Below are positions 22,854 through 35,756 of a stretch of 35,756 nt of DNA, piece by piece. Position 1 is the first letter of the stretch; every line of letters begins with the position of its first letter. The DNA is from an uncultured Bacteroidales bacterium (GTDB lineage: Bacteria; Bacteroidota; Bacteroidia; Bacteroidales; Muribaculaceae): contig CADBDH010000041.1 in the NCBI GenBank assembly GCA_902793405.1, positions 1 through 35,756 of the forward strand, given 5' to 3'. The notes beneath the pieces were generated by a model. That model did not search any database. It worked only from the letters and a program-made list of their open reading frames with translations, and had not been told where the DNA came from. Both the position numbers and the translations under genes were made by a program.

Positions 22854-25800
22854 TTAGAATGAAACATTGAGACCATAGGTGACATTGAGGGGGATAGGAT
22901 AGCCGAAGTTGGGATTCTCGGGATCCACACCGGTAAATGACTTGCTCTTGATGGTCAGCAGATTCTGGGCAGATACATACATGCGCAGGCGGGCGATATG
23001 CAACTTGTCGCACACGCTGCTGCCAAAATTGTAACCCAGCTGGATGTTACGCATCTTGGCGAAGGAACCATTCTCCACAAAGTAGCTGCTCACACGCTTC
23101 TCGTTGTTGTTGTCCATCGTGCTGACAGCGGGGATGTTGGAGTTGGGATTATTGGGGGTCCATGCGTCAAGCAAGCGGCGACCCTTGTTCAGGTTGGTGA
23201 TATTCAAGCCGGCCCACAGGTCGGTCTCGCGCTTCAGGTCGCTGATAACGTCAACGCCCTGTACGCCCTGCCAGAACATGGTGAAGTCAAAGTTCTTGTA
23301 TTCAAGATAGATGTTCAGACCCCAAGTGAAGTCGGGCACGGGAGAGTAGATCCACTTCTGGTCCTTCTCGTTGATGACGCCGTCCCCGTTCAGGTCTTTC
23401 CAGCGGATGCGGCCCAGGCCTGCACCATTCTGTGCGGCATGGTTGGCGATCTCGTCCTGGCTCTTGAAGATGCCGTCATATACATAGCCCACCTGGGCGC
23501 CCATGGGATGTCCCACAATGCTCTCGACGCCGTTACCGCCGAAGGTGCCGGCTGCTGCCAGCGTCTCGGGGAGCTTGGTCACCTTGTTGCGGTAGGTGCC
23601 GATGTTGCCGGCGATGTCATACTGGAAATCGCCCACGCTGCCGCGGTAGCCCACGTTCAGCTCGATACCCTTATTGGTCATCTCACCAGCATTGATCCAC
23701 TGGCTGCTGCCCTCACCCATTACACCGATGCCGGGCATGTAAACCAGAATGTCGGTGGTCTTCTTGTAGTACCACTCAAACGAGCCATAGAGCGCGTTGC
23801 GCAGCAGGCCGAAGTCAAAACCGAGGTTGGTCTGAGTCGTGGTTTCCCACTTGAGGTTATCGTTGCCCAACTGGTTGCGCTTGAAACCGCTGGGGAGCGT
23901 CTGGCCGCCATTGGTACCGGCGATGTCGTAGCTGGTACCGTAGCTCTGGCCACCGAAACCGGCCTCACCATAGTTGCTCTCGAAGATGGTGTAGCGGGCA
24001 ATGTTGGAAATCTCCTGGTTACCGGTCTGTCCCCAAGATGCGCGCAGCTTGAGGTTGTCGAGCCACTCCATGCGCTTCATGAAGGGCTCCTCGCTGATGC
24101 GCCAACCGAGGCTGACCGAGGGGAAGGTACCGTAGCGGTTGTTGCGGCCGAAGCGGCTCGAACCGTCGTAACGCATGGTCACGCTGGCCAGATAACGGTC
24201 GGCGTAGGTGTAATTCACCTTGCCGAAGAATGATACCAGCGTGTAACCCTCGCCAGAGCCGTAGGCCTCGGCCTCGCCGACTGCTGCGTTGGGCCACATG
24301 TAATCGGGATTCAGGACAGCAAAGTCGTAGGCCTTGCCGCTGAGCCATGAGTCATCCTCACGGTTGAGCTCGGTACCGATCATGATGTCGCCACGATGGT
24401 TGCCGCGCTCCATGTTGTAGGTAGCGATAGCGTTCCACATCCACTTGGTCCAGTGCTCCTGCTTGGCCTCGACGGCATTGGTCGAATTGGCCACGGTGCC
24501 CTCGGTGATGGGATAGGTGAAGATGCGCTGTTGCTTCTGTGAATAGTCAAGACCGAAGGTTGACTTCACGTTGAAGTCGGCGAAGGGGTTGATGTTGATG
24601 AAGGCATCACCGAACATGCGCCAGTAGGTATAGCGGTTGTCGCTGTTGCGGTCCAGACGGGCCACGGGGTTCTCGCGGTCGGGATAACCGCCCACGGGTC
24701 CGGCGTAATGGCCATCGGTCGTGTAAACGGGCAGTGACGGGTTGAACTGCAACACATTCTCCAGGAAGCCGCCAGGAGCCTGAAGCTCGTTGGTGCGGTT
24801 TACGGTGAAGTGCTCACCCACGGTCACGATCTTGCGGTCGCCCACAGGTAACAGCTTGTAGGTCGAGTTCATACGGGCCGAGAGGCGCTGGAAGTCCGAC
24901 TTCTTGATGATACCGTCGTTCTTGTAGTAGCCCAGCGAGAAGAATGAAGTTCCGTTCTCGGTACCCTGGCTCAGCGAGAGGTTGTACTGCTGAACCAGAC
25001 CCGTGCGGGTGGTCTCCTTGAACCAGTCGGTGTCGGCGGCGGGAGTCAAGCCTGCAGGATCCAGGAACTTGTTCATCGTGATGTTGTTGAGCATGGGAAC
25101 GCCTTGGGCATCGTAACTCCAGTCATAATGGTAGCCCAGACCGTTCAGGTTGGGATTTAGGCCATCGTTTACATAGCCCTGCCACATCGTCTGGCCAAAC
25201 TCCTTGGCGTTCAGCACTTTCATCTTGTGGGCATAGGTCTGTACCGACAGGCTGGCGTCGAAGTCGATCTTCACTTTGCCGTCCTTGCCGCCCTTGGTGG
25301 TGATGATGATGACACCGTTGGCAGCGCGGCTACCGTAGATAGACGCCGAAGCGGCATCCTTCAAGACCTGGATGCTCTCGATGTCGTTACCGTTGAGCTC
25401 GTGCATACCGGCCTTGGTGGGAACACCGTCGATGATGTAAAGCGGGTCGTTGTTGTTCAGGGTACCTGTACCACGAATGCGGACAGTAGCGGCACCCGAG
25501 GGGTTACCGTCGGCCGAGATGTTCATGCCCGGCACGCGACCCTGCATCGCCTTAATGGGGTTGTTCTCGTTCTGCTTTACCAGATCGGTCACGCTGACTA
25601 CACTCACGGCGCCGGTCAAGTCGGCCTTGCGCTGTGTGGTGTAACCCGTCACGACGATCTCGTTAAGGGCAAGTGCGTCCTCCTTCATGGTGACGACCAT
25701 GCCATTGCTGGCAGGCATCTCGACATTAAGGAAGCCCACGTAGGAGAAAACGAGGGTTGCTCCGGGGTTGACCTTGATGGTGAATACACCGTCAAAGTCG

Positions 25801-29881: not shown

Positions 29882-30116
29882 TTTTTGTCAACAATAAGGC
29901 CCAAAACACATTAAATATATAACGTGATGGTCAAAAAAATCCAATTATTCTGCAAAATTGCTAAATTTCCATAACATATCAAAATTTCCTGCCCGTTATT
30001 TAAAATCCACCCCCACTAAAACCAATATACGGTTAACCCTTAAAGAAAAAGCAAAGGCACCGCATATCGTTGATATACAGTGCTTTGATTCTGATTTTTG
30101 GTTATGTTGCTGGCCT

Positions 30117-31067
30117 TTAGGCGTCTTGTCGCCGGGCCTTGCGGGTAGCGATGCGGTTGATGAGGTAGCCCGAGGACAAAATCAGGACTCCAAAGATGAC
30201 ATAGAAGCACGTCATGAAGCTTCCGGCAGGAAAAGTGTACCCCATCACATGAATGTCGCGGGAAGACCCCGAATAGAACACAAAATGCCCAAGCAATAAC
30301 GCACAACAGTAAATAAAAATATAGACGAACATCAGGCGCCACAAGGTGCCCCACAAGCCATAGCCGAACAGCTGCTTGTAACCGATGATATAATAAGCCG
30401 TCACAACGACGAATATGCCCGTGAGGACTGTCATCTGCTTGAAAATGAACCAGCACGGCACCATCAGCAGGAAGATAGACACTTGCAGGGTGGCATAAAG
30501 GACCTGGATAAAGAACCCCTCGGGGGTGGGGAAGATGGCCATGAAGGAAAGTATCAGCATGGACCAGCTGAAATGGGTCTCATACCAGTCATAAAACGGC
30601 TTGGACATGTTAGCCATGTTTTCCCCATCATCCACACTGAAACCAAGTTCATGGAAATCCAGCCCATAGCCGAGACCCTTGAATTCAGGTAACAACCAAT
30701 GGAAGAAGACCGCATAGGCGACAGCGAGAATGAACAGCATCTTCACGGGCGGAAAACTCACTTGACGCCTGCCGCTGATGTAGTCACCGATGAAGTAACC
30801 AGTGCGGAAGAGCAACTGCCACACGCTGTACAGGACAGAACGCGAACGCGACCCCAAACCCCACATGTCCATCACGCTCTGGCGCACGCTATGCCACCCG
30901 ATGCGCCCCAAGTTTGCCCGCTGAGAGCAGGTAGGGCAATAGTGGCCCGTGAAGGTGAACCCGCAGTTGTTGCAACGATGCTCCACATCACCCTGGACGT
31001 ATCGCATCGGCTCACGCTGCCAACGCTTGAAACCCTTGTATCGTTTTTTTAGTGATTGCCAACTCAT
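30117..31067 (-). CDS. DUF3667-type zinc-ribbon membrane protein
   Basis: 316 residues. Near the N-terminus a zinc ribbon (HRCNNCGFTFTGHYCPTCSQR) is followed by helical GRIGWHSVRQSVMDMWGLGSRSRSVLYSVWQLLFRTGYFIGDYISGRR, the DUF3667 signature in Bacteroidetes. Five or so membrane helices follow (VKMLFILAVAYAVFFHWLL, SMLILSFMAIF, VSIFLLMVPCWFIF, VLTGIFVVVTAYYIIGY, MFVYIFIYCCALLLGHFVFY, and a last one at FMTCFYVIFGVLILSSGYL). Function is unknown. It has its own promoter and seems unrelated to the fructan genes. Confidence 0.75.
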   Translation of the reverse strand: MSWQSLKKRYKGFKRWQREPMRYVQGDVEHRCNNCGFTFTGHYCPTCSQRANLGRIGWHSVRQSVMDMWGLGSRSRSVLYSVWQLLFRTGYFIGDYISGRRQVSFPPVKMLFILAVAYAVFFHWLLPEFKGLGYGLDFHELGFSVDDGENMANMSKPFYDWYETHFSWSMLILSFMAIFPTPEGFFIQVLYATLQVSIFLLMVPCWFIFKQMTVLTGIFVVVTAYYIIGYKQLFGYGLWGTLWRLMFVYIFIYCCALLLGHFVFYSGSSRDIHVMGYTFPAGSFMTCFYVIFGVLILSSGYLINRIATRKARRQDA

Positions 31068-31113
31068 CCTCTTCTCATTATCATAGAAACGGAATCCATA
31101 ATCTATTCCACTG

Positions 31114-31121
31114 CAAAAGTA
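31114..31121 (-). promoter_or_regulatory. Probable -7 element for the DUF3667 gene
   Basis: On the minus strand TACTTTTG fits TAnnTTTG, 46 bases before the start codon. No clear -33 element is seen. Confidence 0.4.
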
Positions 31122-31301
31122 TAGAAAAAACCATCACCCACCATCCATCATCCCTAAAAAACTGAAAACCAGCCATTTATTTTGACCATTATCGAAGTAG
31201 AAAAAGGATAGATACGATAAAGACACCTTTCATATGATAAAAATCTCTTTTAACAATAAAGATCTCTTTATCCGTAATTTGCGCCACTAAGTTGCAAGAA
31301 C

Positions 31302-31337
31302 AAAAAAAAGTGCTAGCAATCTAATGATTGTCAGCAC
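31302..31337 (-). terminator. Terminator hairpin beside the first tRNA-end-like core
   Basis: On the minus strand the arm GTGCTGACAATC pairs with GATTGCTAGCAC (one bulged position) and is followed by eight Ts. It lies nine bases beyond the CGGCTCTGGGTAC core, exactly where the terminator of a minus-strand tRNA gene would be. Confidence 0.65.
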
Positions 31338-31346
31338 CTTGTACTC

Positions 31347-31359
31347 GTACCCAGAGCCG
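31347..31359 (-). other. Attachment-site core 1: 13-bp tRNA 3'-end-like sequence
   Basis: On the minus strand it reads CGGCTCTGGGTAC, which resembles the last T-stem base pairs plus acceptor 3' strand of a tRNA (best fit from memory: tRNA-Leu, GCCCAGA pairing TCTGGGT). Only this end is present; the tRNA body is missing. An identical copy is at 34062-34074. I read it as the chromosomal-side end of an integrated element. Confidence 0.6.
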
Positions 31360-31469
31360 TGCTATCCTAGCCATCATCATATATCATCAAAAATCACCTA
31401 ATCTCATAGATAATCAACCGATTACGCCACATCAAGGATGAGTTTCTCTGATTATCATGGAAATACAAA

Positions 31470-31503
31470 TGTCAAAAAGTTCAAGTAAAGTTCAAGTAAA
31501 AAA
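31470..31503 (+). repeat. Arm-type repeat, left end of the cassette
   Basis: TGTCAAAAAGTTCAAGTA followed by a second AAGTTCAAGTAAA. The 18-base start is repeated exactly at 33986. Tandem GTTCAAGTAA units of this kind look like binding sites for the arm-binding domain of a tyrosine integrase; that role is inferred. Confidence 0.5.
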
Positions 31504-31614
31504 ACACACACAATGGTCTTAATAAAATGGCCTTAAATAGCGGTATAATCTTACTATGCCAAACTATCGATTGAAAAAATGCAAGCATTGTGGGTTAATT
31601 TACAGATTTTTGTT

Positions 31615-31622
31615 TAATTTTG
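31615..31622 (+). promoter_or_regulatory. Probable -7 element upstream of the EcsC gene
   Basis: TAATTTTG fits TAnnTTTG. A TTG lies at 31588-31590, four bases further than ideal. The start codon is 147 bases downstream, leaving a long leader. Confidence 0.4.
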
Positions 31623-31768
31623 CAACAATGTTTAATAATAACCGCTATGATTATGGTTGACGGACCATTATTGCTTTTTTTGAGCCATCTACAGGATTAA
31701 CGCCCCTGACGGGGACCTTAGAGGACTCATATATTACCTTAATACCGAATTAATAACATATCTCAGTT

Positions 31769-32596
31769 ATGAACAAATACGAAAAAGAACAATACAAAGC
31801 GATAATTAAGTGGAAAGAAAAAAAGCCGAGTGTCATGTCACGACTCACGGGTCGTGCACTAAAACCCCTATCTTGGACTGTTGAGAGAGTAATACCTCCT
31901 CGAGCTATACAGGGTGCTCTAACTGGTGCAGATTGGATTGCACAAGGATTAACCGACACCGAAGATATCAAACGTGATGGTAAGGTTAACCAGATTTCTG
32001 AATTGAGACACAAAGATTTACAATTATCTGATAAGCTTGCAAATGAAGTTCATAATTGGGCAAATGGCATCGCTCTTGCTGAAGGTGCCGCAACAGGAGC
32101 CAGTGGTCTTCCAGGTATGGCGGTTGACATACCAGCCTTGATAACGATGTGCCTACGTGCCATTCACAAAATAGGTTTATGCTATGGTTATGAATGTAAG
32201 ACGCAAAGTGACAAGCAGTTAGTGTATGGCATCCTCTCGGTTGCTGGAGCCAATAATGTTCACGAAAAGGTTGTGGCCCTTGCAAATATCCAAGCAATTA
32301 AAGTCATTATTGCTAAAAATACTTGGAAAAAAATAGCAGAAAAAGCAGCTACCAAAACCGCTAGTGGAGAAGCTCTTGTCATAACAATAAAGAACTTAGC
32401 AAAGCAACTAGGCGTAAATTTAACAAAACGAAAAGCACTTCAGGCTATACCATTAGTCGGTGCCGGTGTCGGTGCGGCCATGAACGTTTCATTTGTTACT
32501 GATGTAGCTTGGGCGGCTAGGCGCACCTTCCAAGAAATGTGGCTACAAGAAAACGGTTTGATTATAGAGCCAGAAGTGATAGAACCTTGTGAATAA
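31769..32596 (+). CDS. EcsC-family protein
   Basis: 275 residues. The core TGASGLPGMAVDIPALITMCLRAIHKIGLCYGYE (about residues 109-142) is the EcsC family signature, preceded by the usual ANEVHNWANGIALAEGAA helix. A later glycine-rich amphipathic stretch is AIPLVGAGVGAAMNVSFVTDVAWAARR (about 227-253). There is no signal peptide. EcsC was named for a gene beside an ABC transporter in Bacillus, but its biochemical role is not established; the glycine-rich hydrophobic helices suggest membrane association. It is the first gene of the AT-rich cassette, with the lipase-like gene 90 bases downstream. Codon use is AT-rich compared with the genes left of 31 kb, which points to transfer. Confidence 0.75.
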   Translation: MNKYEKEQYKAIIKWKEKKPSVMSRLTGRALKPLSWTVERVIPPRAIQGALTGADWIAQGLTDTEDIKRDGKVNQISELRHKDLQLSDKLANEVHNWANGIALAEGAATGASGLPGMAVDIPALITMCLRAIHKIGLCYGYECKTQSDKQLVYGILSVAGANNVHEKVVALANIQAIKVIIAKNTWKKIAEKAATKTASGEALVITIKNLAKQLGVNLTKRKALQAIPLVGAGVGAAMNVSFVTDVAWAARRTFQEMWLQENGLIIEPEVIEPCE

Positions 32597-32686
32597 ATGG
32601 AATTTCTAGTTCTTATAACATGAGCTTATATTCTCGAAATAGAGTAATCTGAGCCAACATCCGTCTTTTTTAAATTCTATCGGATT

Positions 32687-33658
32687 ATGGAACTATCTGA
32701 GTTTTTCATATCATTAGGGCTAACAGATGTTAATCATCAGAAGAAAGCCTTAGCAGTATTTATTGATGAATATTGTTCTCTGGCTAGAGTCAAAGAGAGA
32801 TCCAAGTTGGATGGTTCTACAAATACTATACGTTTTCTGACTGAGAGATTGAGTGCTAAGTTTATGGGATTATCAAATACTGATACAGTCAGTTATTCAA
32901 AGTATGCCCGTAGACTATTGTTGCGCGATAAAGAAGTCTATGAAAAGATACAAAAAATGGTTTCAACTGAAGGCGCCAGAGGATTCAATCGTGTAAATGA
33001 CTATGCCAGAATCGCAGCGCATGTTTACGGAGATCGCAAGGATAGCATTTTATCGAAACCATGGATATTTCTTGGTAACAAATATTATAATCTTCAACTT
33101 GATCACAAAAAGAGTGGCCTACAGGCTGCATTATACTACAAAGAGGGAATTAATCCACAATACGTTTATGCAATCGCGGGAACTAGAGGCGCTAATCTTA
33201 AAGATTGGGAAGCTAATAAGAAGCAATTGATAGGTCTAAGCGAACAATATGACCGAGCCTGTGCAAATGCCGAAAAACTATCTAGTATACTGGGAACCTC
33301 TAGGTTGGTTATGGTCGGCCATTCTAAAGGTGGTGGCCAAGCAGCCTATTGTGCATTGCGTACTGGTTGCGCTGCCATAACATTCAATCCCGCAGGGCTT
33401 GGTCTATACAAATTCAAACATAATAGGAATATCAAACCTAAAATCAATTCATATGTAATGGTTAAAGATCCATTAAACTTGTTGCAAATGTTGGCACAAT
33501 TAATGTCTGTCGACATCACAGCCGATGGTTCAGTACACTATCTAGAGAATGATAAAAATTCAAAGGTTAGAGAATGGCATGGAATTGATGGATTCTTAAG
33601 ATTGGGTGGGATGACTGATATGCAATATTGCTCTTATAATTTGGCTGAAATCCCCTGA
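32687..33658 (+). CDS. Lipase-like alpha/beta hydrolase
   Basis: 323 residues with no signal peptide. Residues ~1-150 are helical and unassigned. Then YAIAGTRGANLKDWEANKKQL (oxyanion-side strand), the nucleophile elbow VMVGHSKGGGQAA with Ser213, VKDPLN with candidate Asp261, and EWHGID with candidate His298 follow in the order of a lipase class 3/DUF2974-like hydrolase. A complete catalytic triad is plausible. It would act on an ester, perhaps phospholipid, inside the cell. It lies between the EcsC and zinc-ribbon genes within the cassette. Pairing of a cytoplasmic lipase with a membrane-associated protein suggests a membrane-directed effector, but that is inference. Confidence 0.7.
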   Translation: MELSEFFISLGLTDVNHQKKALAVFIDEYCSLARVKERSKLDGSTNTIRFLTERLSAKFMGLSNTDTVSYSKYARRLLLRDKEVYEKIQKMVSTEGARGFNRVNDYARIAAHVYGDRKDSILSKPWIFLGNKYYNLQLDHKKSGLQAALYYKEGINPQYVYAIAGTRGANLKDWEANKKQLIGLSEQYDRACANAEKLSSILGTSRLVMVGHSKGGGQAAYCALRTGCAAITFNPAGLGLYKFKHNRNIKPKINSYVMVKDPLNLLQMLAQLMSVDITADGSVHYLENDKNSKVREWHGIDGFLRLGGMTDMQYCSYNLAEIP

Positions 33659-33759
33659 AATCCTTATCCGCAATAATGACATTACGTTCAAGGGCAGATA
33701 GAAGTTGTCTGTCAAAAATTCGATGATATAAAACACTATAATCAATCAAAAAGTATAAT

Positions 33760-33975
33760 ATGCAACGAGGAACTATTATATTCAAGTGTACAGAGTGTGG
33801 TAATCATTTTAAGGCTCCTGACATAGAGTGGATGGCTACAACAATGAGTGTACCACAGCGTTGTCCTGAATGTCACAGTATTAGGACACGTCCATCGCGT
33901 TTAGTTTCAATTCTGTCAACAGACGCTATGTACGAGAAAATCTGGAAAGACATGGAGGAGAATAGCAAAGGTTGA
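33760..33975 (+). CDS. Small zinc-ribbon protein
   Basis: 71 residues with two CxxC pairs (FKCTECGNHFKAPDIEW and RCPECHSIRT) forming a zinc ribbon, then an acidic/helical tail (STDAMYEKIWKDMEENSKG). No catalytic domain. It may bind nucleic acid or a partner protein. It lies 101 bases after the lipase-like gene and ends 10 bases before the right arm-type repeat, so it is the last gene of the cassette. Confidence 0.6.
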   Translation: MQRGTIIFKCTECGNHFKAPDIEWMATTMSVPQRCPECHSIRTRPSRLVSILSTDAMYEKIWKDMEENSKG

Positions 33976-33985
33976 TACAGCTATT

Positions 33986-34017
33986 TGTCAAAAAGTTCAA
34001 GTAATGTTAAAGTAAAA
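33986..34017 (+). repeat. Arm-type repeat, right end of the cassette
   Basis: TGTCAAAAAGTTCAAGTA is identical to 31470-31487. The following ATGTTAAAGTAAAA is a diverged version of the second unit on the left. Confidence 0.5.
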
Positions 34018-34048
34018 GGTATTGTATCTAATTGAGATACAATACCTT
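34016..34048 (-). terminator. Perfect 14-bp hairpin beside the second tRNA-end-like core
   Basis: AAGGTATTGTATCT (34016-34029) pairs without mismatch with AGATACAATACCTT (34035-34048) around a 5-base loop; the minus strand continues into TTTTACTTT. It plays the same positional role as 31302-31337 but is unrelated in sequence, as if the element supplied its own tRNA terminator. Confidence 0.6.
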
Positions 34049-34061
34049 AACTATTTGCTTG

Positions 34062-34074
34062 GTACCCAGAGCCG
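34062..34074 (-). other. Attachment-site core 2: 13-bp tRNA 3'-end-like sequence
   Basis: Identical to 31347-31359. Here the minus strand continues CGGCTCTGGGTAC-CA, so the CCA end is also present. It lies about 240 bases before the integrase start. Confidence 0.6.
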
Positions 34075-34212
34075 CAATTGAAAATATTAAAACGGCTTAA
34101 ATGGCATTCAATTGAAAATCCTTTAATTTTGCTTATTATCTATTGATTTTCAGCATATTACAAAAACCCTCGGATTTAAGTGCATTTAAGCGTTTTGCAA
34201 GGTTTTTAGCAG

Positions 34213-34235
34213 ATGTGGGGAAAATGTGGGGAAAA
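34213..34235 (+). repeat. Two overlapping copies of ATGTGGGGAAAA upstream of the integrase promoter
   Basis: Copies at 34213-34224 and 34224-34235, ending three bases before the -33 element. They may bind the integrase or a regulator. Confidence 0.5.
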
Positions 34236-34237
34236 AA

Positions 34238-34269
34238 TTTGGTCATTCAAAGGATAAGTATTACCTTTG
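34238..34269 (+). promoter_or_regulatory. Promoter of the tyrosine integrase
   Basis: TTTG at 34238-34241 and TACCTTTG at 34262-34269 with a 20-base spacer match the consensus. Because it lies after the upstream GTG at 34226, it argues that translation starts at 34313. Confidence 0.65.
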
Positions 34270-34312
34270 TATAAAGCTATTTACACACTATCCCAACAAC
34301 CATAAAAAAGAC

Positions 34313-35647
34313 ATGAAAGTTACATTTATCATAAAAAAATCGGCAAAAAGGTATGACACGGAATCGACGGCCACCATATATTTGCGTCTGAGGGATGGTA
34401 GGAGATTGGATTCAGTTGCCCAGACAGAACTCACCATCAATCCTAATCTTTGGGACGAGAAGAATGAGTGTGTCAAGTCGAAGGCTATTTGTGACCCAAA
34501 GCTTCGTACAGAGACCAATGAAGAACTCCGGAAACTCAAAGGCTTTATCGAAAGGGAATACGAACGTGATAAGGACAATCTGGACAAAGACTGGCTTAAA
34601 GCTATCCTTGTCCGATATTATCACCCCGAAAAGTTCACTCCTGAAGGTGAAAAGAAACAAACCTTTGAGCAGATGTTTGATGAGTTTTTGGAGAAACACC
34701 GCCTGTCTGAAGTTCGCAAGAAGAATTTCAGAGTAGTTAAGCGATCCATGCTTCGATATGAGCTTTATGTCAAGAAGACCAAGCGAAACAGGAAAGACTT
34801 TGTTCTTGACGTGAACGATGTGACCAGGGACACGCTTGCTGATATGTGGGATTTCTTTGAGAACGAGTATAAGTACTTCGAGAAATACCCTCAAATCTAT
34901 GAGAACATACCCGAAAAGCGCACACCACAACCCAGAGGAAAGAACACTCTGATAGATTGTTTCTCACGCATCAGAACGTTTTTTCTGTGGTGCTATGAGA
35001 ATGGGAAGACCACCAATCGCCCATTCGATAAATTCCCCATTGAAGAGTGCCTGTATGGTACACCGGTCTATATATCATTAGACGAGAGGGAGCAGATCTG
35101 GAATGCGGATTTGTCAGCAAGGCCTCAACTCGCCATTCAGCGTGACATCTTCATTTTCCAGTCTGTCATCGGCTGCCGTGTGAGTGACCTCTACAGAATG
35201 ACAAAGCAAAGTATTGTCAACAGTGCCATTGAGTATATTCCCAAGAAAACCAAAGAAGGACGCCCCTTAACGGTACGAGTCCCACTGAATGAGCGAGCTA
35301 AAGAGATTCTCAAACGTTACGAGGACTTTGAAGGTCCAGGCCTTCTTCCGTTTATTTCTGAGCAGAAATACAACAAGGCCATCAAGGAATTTTTCAAACT
35401 TGCTGGCATTGATAGGATTGTCACCACATTAGACCCCTTGACCCGCGAGGAAGTGAAGCGACCCATCTATGAGGTTGCCAGCAGCCACATGGCGCGAAGG
35501 ACTTTTATTGGTAACATTTACAGAAAAGTCAAAGACCCAAACCTTGTCTCAGCCCTATCTGGCCACAAGGAAGGCAGCAAGGCATTCCAGCGGTATAGAG
35601 ATATTGATGAGGAAATGAAGAGAGACCTGGTCAAGTTGTTGGATTAG
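34313..35647 (+). CDS. Tyrosine recombinase/integrase of an integrative element
   Basis: 444 residues from the ATG at 34313 (MKVTFIIKKSAKRYDTE). Residues ~1-105 are an arm-DNA-binding domain, ~115-235 a SAM-like core-binding domain (TFEQMFDEFLEKHRLSEVRKKNFRVV), and ~250-444 the catalytic domain. The full active set is present: Arg289 (GCRVSDLYRMT), Lys312, His392-x2-Arg395 (SHMARRTF), His418 (LSGHKEG) and nucleophile Tyr428 (FQRYRDID). The frame could be opened by a GTG at 34226, but the promoter lies downstream of that. It sits next to the tRNA-end-like core 2, as is usual for integrases of Bacteroidetes mobile elements. Confidence 0.9.
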   Translation: MKVTFIIKKSAKRYDTESTATIYLRLRDGRRLDSVAQTELTINPNLWDEKNECVKSKAICDPKLRTETNEELRKLKGFIEREYERDKDNLDKDWLKAILVRYYHPEKFTPEGEKKQTFEQMFDEFLEKHRLSEVRKKNFRVVKRSMLRYELYVKKTKRNRKDFVLDVNDVTRDTLADMWDFFENEYKYFEKYPQIYENIPEKRTPQPRGKNTLIDCFSRIRTFFLWCYENGKTTNRPFDKFPIEECLYGTPVYISLDEREQIWNADLSARPQLAIQRDIFIFQSVIGCRVSDLYRMTKQSIVNSAIEYIPKKTKEGRPLTVRVPLNERAKEILKRYEDFEGPGLLPFISEQKYNKAIKEFFKLAGIDRIVTTLDPLTREEVKRPIYEVASSHMARRTFIGNIYRKVKDPNLVSALSGHKEGSKAFQRYRDIDEEMKRDLVKLLD

Positions 35648-35756
35648 TTCAACACATCCTCAATTGCAATGGTCCACCTCGCGTTGCTTACTAATCAAGC
35701 ATTGTTTGATGACATCTTTACTGATACTCAAATAAATTATACTAAATAAGAATCGT

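Follow-up and report, generated by a model that had tools for sequence, protein, structure and literature searches.

A candidate trans-mobilised, integrase-less cassette at the 3' end of tRNA-Leu(CAA) in a Muribaculaceae genome

How does a short stretch of DNA that encodes no recombinase come to lie, sharply bounded, between two copies of the end of a tRNA gene? The question is posed by positions 31347-34074 of contig CADBDH010000041.1 of an uncultured Bacteroidales bacterium of the Muribaculaceae (assembly GCA_902793405.1), the whole 35,756 nucleotides of which are referred to in what follows as the window. The segment is probably a non-autonomous cassette, inserted at the 3' end of tRNA-Leu(CAA), that belongs to a family of such cassettes, is mobilised in trans, and can be regarded as a variant of the cis-mobilizable elements (CIMEs). 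This answer is drawn from comparison of sequences.

Two copies of a tRNA end and the DNA between them

The segment is bounded by exact minus-strand copies of CGGCTCTGGGTAC, the core, at 31347-31359 (core 1) and 34062-34074 (core 2), spaced 2,715 bases apart as an initial annotation of the window had reported. That annotation also expected the core to be the 3' end of a tRNA-Leu gene, and such a gene exists: the draft genome (3.19 Mb) holds three exact copies of the core, two in the window and a third that forms the last 13 nt of tRNA-Leu(CAA), at 25591-25675 of another contig, C28. C28 stops 11 bases past the tRNA, in GAGTTTGACTC; relatives have this sequence where the window's type of integrase element ends on the tRNA side. 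The tRNA and the window are on separate contigs and presumably adjoin.

Taken alone, a chance test confined to the window is weak (with up to 2 mismatches allowed the core matches 3 times, 0.67 matches being expected, and 4 of 100 shuffles reach 3); the significance of the core derives from the tRNA match and from relatives, not from this test. Across 101 genomes of the genus, exact cores number 112, against 11 occurrences of the reversed pattern. Loci for comparison, a subset of these 112 cores, were taken by core position (G-numbers denote genomes of the genus, G000 being the window's own, and L-numbers the DNA loci from them). Some copies of the core that lie inside genes, away from any tRNA (for example in L049, L056, L059, L073 and L088), look like chance matches. 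An Rfam search of window positions 30000-35756 returned no match.

The order of parts that had been proposed for tandem integration at a single tRNA gene (tRNA - integrase element - core 2 - cassette - core 1 - chromosome) is found contiguously in G009, on a contig (C1) of 254,730 bases with cores at 97532, 61792 and 54014. Between these cores lie a 35.7 kb element, whose integrase adjoins core 61792 and is 99% identical to that of the window, and a 7.8 kb cassette; a chromosomal regulator gene lies beyond the cassette. The cassette-free site is also found. G021 has a flank that matches the window's at 92% identity; there the end of the integrase element is joined straight to the chromosomal side, and the window flanks, when joined at the core, align through this junction; the cassette is thus missing exactly at the core. 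G002 and G095 have the same cassette-free junction. There is next to no chance, then, that the segment is part of a fixed chromosomal block or a product of misassembly. What could be said for an artefact is that these are draft genomes and that the window contig terminates 109 bases beyond the integrase frame, but the same layout is carried on long contigs of G009, G007 and G020, and G062, a single contig, has tandem cores at this tRNA. A conserved, non-mobile block is contradicted by the absence of the cassette from a relative as close as G021.

The architecture that the initial annotation described around the cores (a terminator-like hairpin for each, arm-like repeats just inside both ends, AT-rich DNA between them, and a tyrosine integrase starting about 240 bases past core 2) is borne out in all its parts. 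The two hairpins, both on the minus strand, are at 31307-31340 (fold z -2.8) and at 34016-34048 (a perfect 14-bp stem; fold z -4.8). The first, at core 1, is taken as the native tRNA-Leu terminator pushed outward; a hairpin of the same GGTGCTG-CAATC type follows the last core in G021, G002, G017, G036 and G007. The second belongs to the cassette. The arm pairs, likewise on the minus strand, span 32 bases each and are 94% identical: the distal pair (31470-31501) consists of ACTTGAAC twice at 11-bp spacing, and the proximal, tRNA-side pair (33986-34017) reads ACTTTAACATTACTTGAAC. The G+C content of the enclosed DNA is 38.0%, that of the integrase part 41.9% and that of the remaining window 53.2%. 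The neighbouring element contributes an arm pair of its own (34210-34237, minus strand; TTTTCCCCACA twice), which relatives also have where this element ends on the tRNA side, and a 444-aa tyrosine integrase encoded on the plus strand at 34313-35647 (PF00589, 5.4e-10), here designated class A. Beyond core 1 the chromosomal flank carries a DUF3667 gene (30117-31067, minus strand; PF12412, 1.5e-6), which is also the flanking neighbour in G021 (95%), G036 (76%) and G093 (70%).

Three further loci of the comparison deserve mention. The two cores of G062 (L038:7043-8041) are 986 bases apart behind an element of integrase class B, with one 131-aa open reading frame (ORF) between them. The tRNA-Leu gene of G017 (L057:250-330) seems to be without part of its 3' end, reading GACCCGGTAC in place of GACCCCGGCTCTGGGTAC (an assembly error or damage). 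In G078 (L153, near 450-465) an inverted near-copy of the core, with one mismatch, is located about 70 bases past the tRNA.

A family of cassettes with common ends

Profiles of both cassette ends, together with arm-pattern searches, yield a catalogue of 12 integrase-less segments at this tRNA (in G000, G036, G100, G007, G009, G017, G093, G097, G115, G117, G020 and G101); further ends, remnants or arm pairs in G013, G031, G032, G092 and G121 bring the total to 17 genomes. None of the 1,023 reading-frame stretches (of at least 30 aa) in the 12 cassettes matches an integrase profile made from seven seeds, so that the absence of an integrase originally claimed for the window's cassette extends to all of them; the window integrase, as control, scores 7.8e-162. 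Eight of the 12 have exact cores at both ends.

What the cassettes share is their ends. The distal end module of the window's cassette (31347-31522, minus strand: arms, about 100 bp of conserved DNA, and core) is matched at 5.5e-46 by an nhmmer model of seven sequences, and the proximal module (33978-34074, minus strand) at 1.1e-21 by a model of eleven, the window's own end being among the sequences of each. Over 150 bp, the 11 distal ends of the main class have a mean pairwise identity of 79.4% (range 70.0-90.7). Nine ends of integrase elements average 52-57% to the cassette distal ends, against a mean of 52.3% and a maximum of 60.7% for shuffled sequence; the best single value equals the shuffled maximum and does not exceed it. 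The ends of G020 and G101 fall into a class of their own: they are 78.7% identical to each other, and their 61-63% to one end of an element of integrase class E is close to the shuffled maximum or a little over it. The end of G117 is intermediate, at 62% on average to the main class. The proximal profile also matches class E-like tRNA-side ends (for example L072, 2e-13, and L093, 2e-14) and no class A-type end.

The DNA between the ends is mostly unrelated from cassette to cassette. In an all-against-all blastn comparison only the ends are common, with four exceptions: a pair of Cas13b cassettes, a pair of DUF3667 cassettes, and two further matches, of 134 bp (G009 with G020) and of 29 bp (G036 with G097). 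The window's cassette encodes three proteins, all on the plus strand: a member of the EcsC family (31769-32596; PF12787, 8.7e-41; PADLOC candidate PDC-S29, 2.3e-13), an alpha/beta-hydrolase-like protein (32687-33658; NCBIfam SA1320 family, 1.3e-8, below the curated cut-off; Pfam E 0.05-0.09) with a GHSKGG motif that we take to be the alpha/beta-hydrolase elbow, and a 71-aa zinc-ribbon protein (33760-33975; Zn_ribbon_8, 1.5e-5, below cut-off). Relatives of the hydrolase are lacking among viral contigs, and those on plasmids (7 records) are distant ones.

Elsewhere the cargo is more readily recognised. The P0002 protein of G100 matches Cas13b models (2.5e-141; PspCas13b, 1.9e-57), and the Cas13b gene is followed by 10 CRISPR-like repeats in G100 and by 13 in G007, so that two species hold Cas13b and a CRISPR-like array in the form of integrase-less cassettes (L042:4865-11523 and L035:3455-10269); such cassettes may serve as natural vehicles for Cas13b CRISPR systems. 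A PD-T4-1-like protein (7.8e-69) is encoded in the cassette of G115, and a SoFic-like (Fic) protein (7e-45) in that of G101. G009 and G020 both encode dynamin-like and HerA-like proteins, and G036 and G097 an AAA protein near IetA, in each case related at the protein level. The largest protein of G117 has no Pfam match. A PADLOC scan of the proteins of 8 of the 12 cassettes (threshold 1e-3) gives some match in each of the eight, and none for 2 of 10 relatives' proteins and 2 of 3 window cargo proteins. The strong defence matches are those to Cas13b, PD-T4-1 and SoFic only, matches to AAA and HerA proteins being generic; the window's own cargo (EcsC, hydrolase, zinc ribbon) may have a defence function. 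In two cassettes (L057:9678-10607 and L069:7487-8401) there is a DUF3667 gene that shares about 36% identity with the window's chromosomal DUF3667 gene next to this site, perhaps captured long ago.

Some cassettes are more alike than the DNA that flanks them, which points to horizontal spread. DNA upstream of the tRNA is 78-84% identical between species (84-89% for G007, in alignments of less than 1 kb). The DUF3667 cassettes of G017 and G093 are 92.9% identical over 1,362 bases, with flanking DNA at 78.7%. For the Cas13b cassettes of G007 and G100 the identity is 90% over 4,772 bases, a nearby regulator gene standing at 80%. G036 shares an identical 84-base end with G117 and an identical 75-base end with G101, against 78-79% (78.3% for the first of these pairs).

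Ends that are up to 100% identical around unrelated cargo would also be expected if cargo were exchanged by homologous recombination, the shared ends serving as homology arms and nothing moving site-specifically. The near cargo-less remnant in G032 and the native-type terminators of G097 fit such exchange. It is nonetheless improbable as the explanation of the locus, in that presence or absence of the whole cassette exactly at the core (G021), and the varied positions of cassettes in the array, need recombination from core to core. (The G032 remnant, L053:13438-13594, has its two ends almost joined and one arm left; in G097, L076:367-5281, a terminator of the native type stands after each of the two cores, and there is no proximal end of the usual kind.)

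The cassette might alternatively be the decayed remnant of an older island, a CIME of the classical kind that moves, if at all, only in composite with the adjoining class A element. This we consider unlikely, though deserving of attention. The order integrase-element end, cassette, chromosome is seen in the window, in G009 and in G036, and the class A element itself seems to be spreading now, since its integrase is 96-99% identical in 7 others of the 101 genomes while the tRNA flanks are mostly 78-84% identical. The composite is harder to reconcile with the cassettes that stand at the tRNA in G007, G020 and G115 with no integrase found in the locus as sampled (and likewise in G101 as far as its contig reaches), or with G117 (L048:4383-4791), where the cassette has the tRNA on one side and, on the other, a class A-type end that breaks off after its first 19 bases and gives way to different DNA, which we read as insertion-sequence-like. 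As regards decay, the profile detects no integrase remnant, no mobility remnants are noticed in the cassettes' ORF list (read by eye, which is also how relaxase and Rep genes were looked for), and the ends are conserved as a family rather than as independent relics.

The end pattern is carried by 13 stretches in a collection of genome contigs, all from Bacteroidales, Prevotellaceae, Prevotella or Muribaculaceae bins; frequent RUG-, goat- and sheep-labelled isolates among them are read as pointing to a rumen habitat. ACTTGAACATTACTTGAAC occurs in 11 of 397 genomes of the family, that is, in 11 of 84 of this genus and 0 of 313 of other genera. A viral source of the cassettes was considered and rejected: the end pattern has 0 matches in a collection of viral contigs, and the arm pattern has a single one there (L199), taken as chance, with no tRNA and with no core or integrase noticed nearby.

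Arm repeats and the source of an integrase

Several classes of integrase with tandem arm pairs can be told apart at this tRNA: A, the class of the window, with TTTTCCCCACA; B with CAATAAGCAAC; C with CCCCACTT; D with GGTGTTAA; E with ACTGGAACATT, ACTAAAACATT or ACATCAACATT; and F with TTTTTGGCGAC. For classes A to D and the third E variant, one kind of arm pair occupies both ends of the element (for the first two E variants the ends come from separate contigs and are joined by inference; one end of F has been seen). Arms are concordant between the ends of one class where both are seen, and differ between classes. Matching of arm to integrase class would constitute a simple and testable code for which enzyme moves which island.

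The initial annotation suggested that the neighbour's integrase may mobilise the cassette in trans. A common core, adjacency and a full-length integrase favour it. As the first choice of mobiliser it has been set aside because of the arms, which in the cassette are of the ACTTGAACATT type at both ends and in the neighbouring element are TTTTCCCCACA at both ends; class A distal ends, moreover, are 52-53% identical to cassette ends, which is the shuffled level. Cassettes stand at the tRNA with no integrase found in the locus as sampled (the four loci named above), and no copy of the class A integrase at 96% identity or more is found in the cassette-bearing genomes G007, G017, G020, G101 and G115 (which are incomplete). 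Mobilisation by class A in trans is accordingly a distinctly improbable account. Class A integrases of at least 96% identity are full or nearly full length in 8 genomes, the window's included (two have one internal stop codon); G114, G010 and G032 yield partial matches at this level.

Mobilisation by some integrase in trans is nevertheless suggested, because the cassettes share ends, differ in genes and hold no integrase. The plan of a cassette is that of the integrase elements at the same site minus the integrase: a core with its terminator hairpin, a tandem arm pair, the cargo, a second arm pair and a second core. On the proposed model, an integrase made by another element would bind the cassette's ACTNNAACATT arms in trans, and the cassette core would pair either with the end of the tRNA gene or with some other core of the array, for insertion or excision; the tRNA end would be restored at every insertion, and a further terminator would come in with the cassette. 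The likeliest source would be class E, whose own elements have ACTGGAACATT or ACTAAAACATT arms, the pattern that the ACTTGAACATT arms of the cassette resemble.

Searches with the arms bear on this proposal. Exact cassette arm pairs are matched 19 times, in 13 of the 101 genomes (reversed control, 0), and in two of these 19 loci there is an integrase, of class D and class A respectively, that is part of the adjacent element. A broader pattern, CTNNAACATTNCTNNAACA, is matched 29 times in 20 of the 101 (reversed control, 1), with an integrase present in 4 of the 29 loci: in L161 and L177 a class E integrase owns the upstream arms (AA and GG variants), and in L164 and L183 the integrase belongs to the next element. 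Many GG and AA pairs have no integrase within 1.5 kb, as expected for tRNA-side ends; TG arms have been observed nowhere but at cassettes and at ends for which no integrase is found. The tRNA side of G101 mixes ACTTG and ACTAA repeats, and G017, G093 and G115 have ACTAA-, ACTGA- or CTGG-like repeats on the tRNA side and ACTTG at the opposite end. Two plasmid records, so filed, L215 (Bacteroides finegoldii) and L214 (Phocaeicola massiliensis), have a related integrase (62% and 75%) beside the core GGGTCTGGGTAC; L215 also holds tRNA-Leu(CAA) and may therefore be a chromosomal piece.

Several observations weigh against movement in trans with class E as helper. No integrase was found to belong to any of the 19 exact ACTTGAAC arm pairs, in loci extending about 1.5 kb to either side as far as the contigs permit (one at a greater distance, or one whose arms have changed, would escape the search), and it is for this reason from arm similarity only that a helper is proposed. 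A close class E integrase (at least 72% identity) is found in G019, G100, G024, G114 and G006, and among these five a catalogued cassette is known from G100 alone. Of the 17 genomes with a cassette, an end or an arm pair, 6 have class A ends or genes at the site (G000, G009, G032, G036, G093 and G097), so class A could have moved cassettes in cis in some cases; G117, with its interrupted class A-type end, is a seventh. The distal core is decayed in 4 of the 12 cassettes (G007, G093, G097 and G115), and some copies may therefore be stuck. The comparison of the Cas13b pair is weakened by its only aligning upstream flank, 88% identical over 864 bases. The genus sample, finally, consists almost entirely of draft assemblies.

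A wider possibility, to which we give somewhat less than an even chance, is that these cassettes form a stable lineage of non-autonomous, interchangeable defence cassettes tied to one tRNA-Leu(CAA) site, with conserved ends, free cargo (Cas13b and a CRISPR array included) and a lasting need for integrases from other elements; it would work somewhat as an integron does, but with no integrase in residence. If cassettes do move in trans, recombination ends alone would suffice for immune systems to pass from one gut species to another, and the cassettes would escape annotation that seeks an integrase inside each island.

Relation to known systems

Integron gene cassettes carry attC hairpin sites that are used by IntI. 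The boundary here is a tRNA 3' end, which argues against a cassette of that type. Phage satellites of the phage-inducible chromosomal island (PICI) or P4 type encode an integrase plus phage-hijacking or packaging genes; the window's cassette has no integrase, and none of its three cargo genes is phage-like above cut-off in Pfam or NCBIfam. Unlike an integrative mobilizable element (IME), it encodes no integrase of its own. Composites of the staphylococcal cassette chromosome (SCC) with ccr-less elements (the arginine catabolic mobile element, ACME, and pseudo-SCC) offer a closer parallel, as recombinase-less cassettes that are stacked at one site and thought to borrow the recombinase of a neighbour; they differ in their site, orfX, and in using serine recombinases. 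Tycheposons are described as cargo islands of 4-200 kb at tRNA genes with a tyrosine recombinase inside (PMC10872708), which the window's cassette is without.

The nearest relation is to CIMEs, which are described as adjoining integrative and conjugative elements (ICEs) or IMEs, retaining attL and attR but no integration or transfer genes, and often lying in tandem at the end of a target gene (PMC5704250). The window's cassette resembles them in keeping both attachment sites (two exact cores with hairpin and arm pair) and in what it encodes: none of the 12 cassettes has an integrase, and the window's genes are those for EcsC, hydrolase-like and zinc-ribbon proteins (in the other 11, transfer genes were looked for in the ORF list only). 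Unlike CIMEs, the cassettes have ends that form a conserved family around mostly unrelated cargo, their arms are unlike those of the neighbour, and several stand alone at the tRNA; the conserved ends, own arms and stand-alone copies argue for a non-autonomous lineage rather than for separate decays. The tandem genomic islands at ssrA of Dehalococcoides, 16 with and 15 without an integration module, the 15 being suggested as CIMEs, are alike in being stacked at one tRNA-like gene, in that about half lack the module, and in their adaptive cargo (PMC3146451). They differ in that a serine recombinase related to Ccr and reductive dehalogenases there take the place of the several tyrosine integrase classes and defence-like cargo found here (PMC3146451).

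No published description of the present cassettes was found in the literature covered, subscription journals being mostly outside it. That islands lacking an integrase can be stacked at a single tRNA or tmRNA gene is already known (PMC5704250, PMC3146451); what appears to be new is a conserved family of ends with interchangeable defence-like cargo, and a class-specific arm code.

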